A stretch of DNA of 33,084 nucleotides, taken from Alphaproteobacteria bacterium. Its GTDB lineage: Bacteria > Pseudomonadota > Alphaproteobacteria > Micavibrionales > Micavibrionaceae. Positions within the stretch are counted from its first letter, which is position 1; each line of letters begins with the position of its first letter. The notes under the pieces were generated by a model. That model was not told the DNA's origin and made no database searches. It was given only the letters and a program-made list of their open reading frames with translations. The translations under genes and the position numbers were made by a program. The stretch spans positions 1 through 33,084 of the forward strand of contig JALEGH010000065.1 of NCBI GenBank assembly GCA_022763065.1, read 5' to 3'. This document shows, piece by piece, positions 5,068-7,486 of the stretch.

Positions 5068-5073
5068 ATCGTG

Positions 5074-5199
5074 CTGTCATCCCGTTGGTATGAGCGAAGC
5101 GAATTGACACGAACGGGATTCAGAGAAGAAGTTCAGCAAAGCTGAACACACATGGATCCCCGCCGTTTATATTTTCTACGCAAATCGCGGGGATGACAG
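5074..5199. repeat. Intergenic palindromic repeat element (three stem-loops, inverted ends)
   Basis: Ends CTGTCATCCC (5074-5083) and GGGATGACAG (5190-5199) are perfect inverted repeats; internal stems CCCGTT/AACGGG, GTTCAGC-aaa-GCTGAAC and ATCCCCGC/GCGGGGAT. Confidence 0.8.
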
Positions 5200-5233: not shown

Positions 5234-5614
5234 ATGCAAAATAACGGTCCATCACAAAGACAACTCCGTGTCGGAGAGCAATTGCGGCATATCATTGCCG
5301 AGACGATGAGCCGTGGGCATTTTCATGAAGCAATCCTGTTGGATGCGGGCAACAATATCACAGTGACGGAGGTGCGCCCCTCCCCTGACCTCAAACAGGC
5401 CACAGCCTATGTCATTTCACTGGGCGGGCTTCAAATGGATGAGCTTTTACCCGCGCTCAATAACAGCGCCAGCATCTTTCAAAAAGACATCAACGCCAAT
5501 TCTAATCTGAAATTCACGCCGAAAGTCCGGTTCAAAGAAGACACCTCCTTCGAAAATGTTCAAAAACTCGATGAAATTTTGAGCAATATCCAATATTCAG
5601 ATCAAGAAAAATAG
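5234..5614 (+). CDS. rbfA: Ribosome-binding factor A
   Basis: 126 aa; SQRQLRVGEQLRHIIAE...ITVTEVRPSPDLKQATAYV; position between infB and truB. Confidence 0.95.
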   Translation: MQNNGPSQRQLRVGEQLRHIIAETMSRGHFHEAILLDAGNNITVTEVRPSPDLKQATAYVISLGGLQMDELLPALNNSASIFQKDINANSNLKFTPKVRFKEDTSFENVQKLDEILSNIQYSDQEK

Positions 5615-5630
5615 TTTTTCATATTTTTAC

Positions 5631-5659
5631 TTGACATAGAACGCTCCCCTTCGTAGCCT
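5631..5659 (+). promoter_or_regulatory. Putative sigma70-type promoter for small membrane protein cluster
   Basis: TTGACA (5631-5636), 17-bp spacer, weak -10 TAGCCT (5654-5659). Confidence 0.35.
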
Positions 5660-5699
5660 TCGGCTTGAATTCAATTATTTAAGGCAAAGGGAAACTACT

Positions 5700-5984
5700 A
5701 TGAAACATGTATTCAAGGCTGCAGCATGTATTGCTGGTGCTACAACTTCTGCTCTTTCCGCTATTTTTCTGCATAGTGCATTACCGGGTAACTGTGGCGG
5801 AAGCTGGATAAATCTCTGCCCAAGAATCTCAGATATGAGTTTTACCGTTCCTACAGTTACAGTTTTTTTCGTCGGAGCAGCGTTATTTGCAATTGGTTAC
5901 CGGAACCCCAAAGAGGGTGAAAAAACCGTTCGTGAAAAACTGGCCGATTATTTGGACCCGCAAAACCCCCCTCCGCAACCCTAA
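5700..5984 (+). CDS. Small membrane protein, paralogue 1 (two predicted TM segments, PGNC motif)
   Basis: 94 aa; MKHVFKAAACIAGATTSALSAIFLHSALPGNCGG, two hydrophobic stretches; similar to ORF at 6214. Confidence 0.75.
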   Translation: MKHVFKAAACIAGATTSALSAIFLHSALPGNCGGSWINLCPRISDMSFTVPTVTVFFVGAALFAIGYRNPKEGEKTVREKLADYLDPQNPPPQP

Positions 5985-6004
5985 GAGCAAAAGGAAAGAA
6001 AATT

Positions 6005-6217
6005 ATGAGTACTGTATTTAACTTCGTTGCTGCCTATGTCGGAGCCGCAACTTTTGGAGCAACGGCCACAGCCGCATGCCTTGCACCTCACTTAACACTG
6101 GAAATGGGTGCCTATATGGCCCTCGGGTTTGCTTCTTTTGCTCTGGGCTATACGCGATCCTTTGGCAGCGGAAACCTAAAGAAAACAGTAGCCAAATTTT
6201 TGAGAGCAACGTTATGA
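6005..6217 (+). CDS. Small membrane protein, paralogue 2
   Basis: 70 aa; C-terminal GY(x5)GN.KKTVAKFL resembles GY(x5)GEKTVREKLADYL of paralogue 1; overlaps next gene by ATGA. Confidence 0.7.
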   Translation: MSTVFNFVAAYVGAATFGATATAACLAPHLTLEMGAYMALGFASFALGYTRSFGSGNLKKTVAKFLRATL

Positions 6218-6492
6218 GCGAAATGAAACATGTATTCAAAATTGCAGCTTGTATTATAGGCGGGGGCGGAGTCGCCTTAACTTCTCTGGAAAAAGTGTGG
6301 AACTCCATTCCCGGCAATTGCGCTGGTACGGCCTGCCCTGACCCTACTAATAAGAGCCTCTGGCTCGGCGCTCTCGTTGCTGGTGTTTGTATATATACCA
6401 AAGGGTTGTATGATATTTACAATACCAAAGACTATAACGCAGAACAAATACGCGCAGAAAAATCAGACGTAACCAAACCTCCTTCCCCTTAA
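6214..6492 (+). CDS. Small membrane protein, paralogue 3
   Basis: Start trimmed from the supplied 6076 ORF to ATG 6214 (ATGA overlap with previous stop): MSEMKHVFKIAACIIGGGGVALTSLEKVWNSIPGNCAGTACPDP...; N-terminus near-identical to paralogue 1. Confidence 0.75.
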   Translation: MSEMKHVFKIAACIIGGGGVALTSLEKVWNSIPGNCAGTACPDPTNKSLWLGALVAGVCIYTKGLYDIYNTKDYNAEQIRAEKSDVTKPPSP

Positions 6493-6511
6493 ATCAAATC
6501 TGCCTCAAATC

Positions 6512-7486
6512 ATGGCACGTCGTAAAAAAGGTCTCAAAATCAATGGCTGGATCAACCTGCATAAGCCGGTTGGAGTAACGTCCACGCGGGCCGTTGGCAA
6601 GATACGGCGCGCCTTGAATGCGCAGAAGGTTGGTCATGGCGGCACGTTAGACCCCCTTGCCTCTGGCGTTCTTCCTATTGCCTTGGGCGAAGCAACCAAG
6701 ACGGTCAATTTTATTCAAGACGCGTTTAAAACTTATGAGTTCGAAGTTACGTGGGGAGAACAGCGCAGCACAGATGATGCCGAAGGGGAGGTCATTCATT
6801 CCTCCGACAAGCGGCCAAGCGAAGAAGAAATCACCGCCATCCTCCCGCGCTTTATGGGTGAGATAGTACAAACTCCACCCCAATTCTCCGCCATTAAAAT
6901 CAATGGAGAGCGTGCCTATGACATTGCCCGCGATGGTGAGCAAGTAGAGATTAAATCACGAAAAGTATATATTGAGAGCTTTTCTATTCTGCCTCAGGCG
7001 GGCAGGCCCGCTACGGCTAGGCAAAATAAAACTTCGTTTCGTATAACATGCGGAAAAGGCACCTATATCCGCTCTCTGGCGCGTGATATGGGCGAGATTC
7101 TGGGCTGTTATGGCTATATTTCCAGCCTTAAACGCACAAAAGTCGGCCCTTTAGAGCTTAAAAATGCGATTTCACTGGACATTTTCCAAAAAATGATTGA
7201 TAACCCTTCCCAAGATGAAGACACGCGCAGCGTTGTCCTCCCCCTTCAGACCGTCCTGGACGACATCCCGGCTCTGGCCTTGAAGGATCAGGAGGCATCA
7301 TCGGTGAAGAATGGAAACCATATTTCATTTCTTTCCAAGCCCGATCTTAACCGCCTTGAGGCCCTTGGGATTGATTGGAAATCGGATGAAATCACGACCG
7401 CTTTGGCAACCTATGACGGAAATGCCCTAGCCATGGTTGAGATAGAAGGTGCCCAAATTCACCCTGTTCGAGTCTTCAATATGTAA
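6512..7486 (+). CDS. truB: tRNA pseudouridine(55) synthase TruB
   Basis: 324 aa; GWINLHKPVGVTSTRAV, GHGGTLDPLASGVLPIALGEATK, CGKGTYIRSLARDMG. Confidence 0.97.
   Translation: MARRKKGLKINGWINLHKPVGVTSTRAVGKIRRALNAQKVGHGGTLDPLASGVLPIALGEATKTVNFIQDAFKTYEFEVTWGEQRSTDDAEGEVIHSSDKRPSEEEITAILPRFMGEIVQTPPQFSAIKINGERAYDIARDGEQVEIKSRKVYIESFSILPQAGRPATARQNKTSFRITCGKGTYIRSLARDMGEILGCYGYISSLKRTKVGPLELKNAISLDIFQKMIDNPSQDEDTRSVVLPLQTVLDDIPALALKDQEASSVKNGNHISFLSKPDLNRLEALGIDWKSDEITTALATYDGNALAMVEIEGAQIHPVRVFNM
6991..7022. repeat. GC-rich palindromic mini-element embedded in truB coding sequence
   Basis: GCCTCAG-GCGGGC-AG-GCCCGC-TACGGCT-AGGC: perfect 6-bp inner stem (6998-7003/7006-7011) and 4-bp outer arms. 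Confidence 0.6.

Follow-up and report, generated by a model that had tools for sequence, protein, structure and literature searches.

A private cassette of three orphan, membrane-type open reading frames between rbfA and truB in a Micavibrionaceae genome

The window analysed here (the whole stretch of 33,084 nt, positions 1 to 33,084 of contig JALEGH010000065.1 from an alphaproteobacterium of the Micavibrionaceae) contains, between the translation genes rbfA and truB, three short ORFs that lie contiguously on one strand, share the orientation of the operon and make up a cassette of ~0.9 kb (Table 1). A preliminary description had placed them at this junction, and the ORF calls together with the Pfam matches of the neighbours agree with it at the same coordinates. 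It had also described ORF2 and ORF3 as overlapping by ATGA, which holds if ORF3 starts at 6214 and fails if it starts at 6223, the exact point where the homology to ORF1 begins. The starts of ORF1 and ORF2 are preceded by purine-rich stretches, and a scan for the relaxed promoter pattern CTTGACN{16,19}TANNNT returned a single match in the window, upstream of ORF1, against 0.5 expected by chance; a stricter consensus scan did not list this candidate. As no terminator-like site is listed on the + strand in the 19-nt gap between ORF3 and truB, the cassette is probably co-transcribed with truB. Neither Rfam nor tRNA scanning gave a match in the window. Farther upstream, the gap between infB and rbfA carries an imperfect palindromic segment (window ~5073-5199), starting CTGTCATCCCG and ending CGGGGATGACAG, that resembles a dispersed intergenic repeat.

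Table 1. Features of the rbfA-truB junction in the window, and ORFs occupying the same gap in other genomes of the family.
Feature	Position	Strand	Remarks
rbfA, upstream neighbour	5234..5614	+	Pfam RBFA, 2.9e-20
Candidate promoter 5' of ORF1, CTTGACA-17 nt-TAGCCT	5630..5659	+	Weak; 6/6 and 3/6 matches to the sigma-70 consensus
ORF1, 94 aa	5700..5984	+	Two hydrophobic segments; two Cys in loop PGNCGGSWINLCP; charged tail with PPPQP at its end; paralogue of ORF3
33-nt 5' repeat, ORF1 copy	5700..5732	+	Encodes MKHVFKAAACI
ORF2, 70 aa	6005..6217	+	Predicted two-helix hairpin and C-terminal basic helix; loop without Cys pair; frame favoured by coding score
ORF3, 92 aa (89 aa if ATG 6223)	6214..6492	+	Two hydrophobic segments; two Cys in loop PGNCAGTACP
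33-nt 5' repeat, ORF3 copy	6223..6255	+	Encodes MKHVFKIAACI; 88% identical to ORF1 copy
truB, downstream neighbour	6512..7486	+	Pfam TruB_N, 1.3e-51
Other gap: 160-aa ORF
Other gap: 370-aa ORF		opposite
Other gap: 276-aa ORF		opposite	Methyltransferase-like by eye
Other gap: lipoprotein-like ORF			Likeness by eye
Other gap: 85-aa two-helix ORF, G023 (another genus of the family)	L110 401-658		Overlaps the end of rbfA, abuts truB

Judged by their sequences, ORF1 and ORF3 are true paralogues. BLASTP aligns them over their whole length with 33% identity (E 1e-11, and E ~2e-6 in genome-wide searches), and their alignment score of 101 lies well beyond the shuffle maximum of 56. The N-terminal repeat alone does not carry this homology, because removal of the first 11 residues leaves a score (54, against a shuffle mean of 26; P 0.0005) that still exceeds nearly all shuffles, including those that keep local composition. 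The alignment retains the PGNC(G/A)G motif, which had been noticed in both proteins and is indeed present in both, as well as the other loop Cys with the Pro that comes after it, and one Cys within the first helix. The view that all three ORFs are paralogues is borne out for this pair, and ORF2 is at most a possible third member: its C-terminal likeness to ORF1 amounts to a weak local match of 28 residues (BLASTP E 0.011) that is not significant by shuffling (P 0.07-0.10), and it gave no match to ORF3.

The same description had proposed a recent tandem amplification, and here the codon positions speak against it. Over the 73 aligned ORF1/ORF3 codons that follow the first 11, differences at positions 1, 2 and 3 number 41, 34 and 52, compared with shuffled means of 53.6, 54.6 and 52.5 for the same codons, although the alignment was built on amino acids, which partly favours such a pattern. 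Outside the leader, third positions are thus saturated, at the level given by shuffled pairing, and second positions show strong conservation. With the same caveat about an amino acid alignment, such a pattern marks an old duplication in which the protein has been under selection. The preliminary description had looked to relatives for protein-level conservation; no relative encodes ORFs 1-3, the locus being absent rather than decayed, and it is the comparison of ORF1 with ORF3 that shows constraint on the protein. The coding score places the annotated frame at the top of the six in all three ORFs (z 3.1-4.0 versus shuffles). Synonymous codon choice resembles that of the host genes only weakly (z 1.7, 0.7 and 2.5 for ORFs 1-3), and GC3 is 0.34-0.42 in the three ORFs versus 0.48 in neighbouring genes. 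The orphan cassette is very probably coding, and the function of its ORFs is probably real.

The near-identical starts of ORF1 and ORF3 reported earlier were recovered as described, with 29/33 nucleotides the same, and constitute the only direct repeat detected within 5400-6800; its first 26 nt have no further copy in the 1.88-Mb genome at ≤3 mismatches. Synonymous sites within the two copies are conserved far above those in the remainder of the two genes. The same codon is used at 8/10 conserved residues in the leader versus 5/21 elsewhere in the BLAST alignment (Fisher P 0.006), or versus 2/18 elsewhere in the MAFFT alignment (Fisher P 0.0005). Neither copy has a significant RNA fold (z -0.40 and 0.58), and RNA structure was set aside as the cause. 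Gene conversion and selection on the translation start both stand as options.

None of the three ORFs matches a family in Pfam, NCBIfam, PHROGs, PADLOC or PDB, in keeping with the earlier statement that no known family could be recognised, and the protein family has no entry in the libraries consulted. PADLOC anti-phage defence models gave no match at E 1, and the ORF2 model, compared with viral structures, had a best hit of E 3.2. Nor was a credible relative found in 193 relatives, in 104 family genomes queried with a two-row ORF1/ORF3 profile and with ORF2, in ~385 genomes sampled from the class, or among IMG/VR viral contigs, phages and plasmids. Weak genome matches did occur (E 0.002-1) and were all treated as chance. 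Of the two most suggestive, both inspected over their full length, the best PGNC-like example, in L119, is antisense to a long open frame resembling plsX, and the one in L125 resembles an unrelated multi-helix protein; the rest are mostly stop-containing or short pieces of long frames. A literature search for small membrane proteins at rbfA-truB found nothing relevant. The earlier picture of an orphan, membrane-type set inside an otherwise conserved translation operon stands.

Synteny in relatives had been proposed as a check on that picture. In all eight congeners with rbfA, truB follows it after ~10-140 nt, and among the 87 family genomes in which a single contig carries both genes, the gap is ≤150 nt in 81, with a median of 30. 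The cassette genome is one of the six with a gap >150 nt; the other five contain unrelated sequence (Table 1). In another family of the order, a DUF559 (Vsr-like) nuclease-type gene lies between rbfA and truB (L101; Pfam 7.7e-39). Given such varied and unrelated inserts in other genomes, the junction accepts private cargo. DUF559-type genes, assigned by similarity to the L101 sequence, are also seen at this position in L102 and L104. In two congeners (L043 and L044) the gap holds a palindromic element (CGTCATTGCGAG...GCAATCC / GATTGCCGC...CGCAATGAC) where the cassette sits here.

What the proteins look like can be predicted in outline. By eye, each has two hydrophobic stretches, although a simple hydropathy scan found no segment above threshold in ORF2 and a single one each in ORF1 and ORF3, so that the second helix is not secure as a transmembrane segment. 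The structure model of ORF2, weak at a mean pLDDT of 64, shows a two-helix hairpin plus a third helix; that of ORF1 is helical but poor (mean pLDDT 47). An N-in/C-in topology is suggested by positively charged residues at the N-terminus and again beyond the second stretch; the loop between the helices of ORF1 and ORF3 would then be periplasmic and its two Cys could form a disulfide.

We consider it reasonably probable that the cassette is a strain- or species-specific acquisition, with the anatomy set out above and a horizontal origin. An old duplication that is absent from all sampled congeners is most easily explained if the genes arrived already duplicated, and the most likely course would be transfer of the complete set from an unsampled source. 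The vacancy of the same site in 8/8 congeners and the lower GC3 of the ORFs relative to their neighbours are consistent with acquisition; against it, no integrase, tRNA or flanking repeats are seen at the cassette, and searches of phages, plasmids, viral contigs and class genomes produced neither a donor lineage nor a mobility gene. Once in place, the three ORFs might be made together, possibly from their own promoter with read-through from rbfA, and their products might enter the inner membrane as hairpins of two helices, with periplasmic-loop disulfides holding those of ORF1 and ORF3, and with the ORF2 product as a shorter two-helix partner without the Cys pair. It is tempting to speculate that they come together in a small complex and so modify the envelope, and that this change protects the cell by excluding phage or by conferring immunity to an agent that acts on membranes. 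A protective role is not directly indicated by any of the results and is a guess that we regard as distinctly doubtful, and the complete scheme (a self-contained inner-membrane module whose PGNC-x-G...CP loop contains a disulfide, occupying the rbfA-truB junction as exchangeable cargo and serving envelope protection) should be taken as a long shot.

Other histories have to be weighed against acquisition. An ancestral small membrane gene might have resided at the junction, disappeared from most lineages and changed past recognition in the remaining ones. The two-helix ORF in the same gap of G023 invites this thought, as it resembles ORFs 1-3 in size, helix count and its overlapping or abutting neighbours, yet it is a single copy without the Cys loop motif, has no detectable similarity to them (shuffle P 0.16-0.85) and is itself without relatives among 193 genomes. 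Since 81/87 family genomes also lack room for a gene of such size at the junction, fast-evolving resident genes seem unlikely. Birth in place, with non-genic junction DNA becoming translated and one ORF then duplicating, would suit small hydrophobic proteins that have no relatives and are weakly host-like in codon usage, but we rate it as quite improbable: the congener gaps are far too short to be a source, and the duplication is old by codon criteria yet the locus is missing in all sampled congeners.

Two further possibilities concern what the ORFs are. Small helical proteins with charged tails bring to mind holin-like or toxin-like, membrane-disrupting products left by a phage, and ORF1 does have a sub-threshold Pfam match to Phage_holin_3_6 (PF07332; E 0.019), a family of likewise small proteins with hydrophobic helices. 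That match reaches 15.4 bits against a cut-off of 28.4, however, and the paralogue ORF3 is unmatched; there is no PHROGs, phage, viral-contig or structure match, and the neighbours are translation genes rather than lysis or other phage genes, making a phage remnant very unlikely. That the ORFs are not genes at all but chance frames in an inserted non-coding segment might be argued from the missing homologues and the weak codon bias, and is barely credible in view of the constrained paralogy of ORF1 and ORF3, the contiguous same-strand layout with purine-rich stretches before two of the starts, and the preference for the coding frame in all three.

An acquired accessory cassette, then, is the reading we favour, and in kind it is ordinary, a set of species-specific accessory genes. 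It resembles ORFan accessory genes at permissive operon junctions in that its ORFs are short, membrane-type, lower in GC3 and confined to one sampled genome, and in that other members of the order carry different cargo at the junction; it differs in that ORF1 and ORF3 are old paralogues with protein-level constraint, a degree of structure beyond that of a lone random ORFan. Because orphan membrane genes are common, the general interest of the finding is modest. Its value is as a clean case of private genes lodged within a translation operon that is otherwise conserved. The Caulobacter rbfA truB rpsO operon already contains an alternative start site able to drive differential expression (PMC4117421). 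A promoter brought in by the cassette, if there is one, could alter the expression of truB-rpsO.
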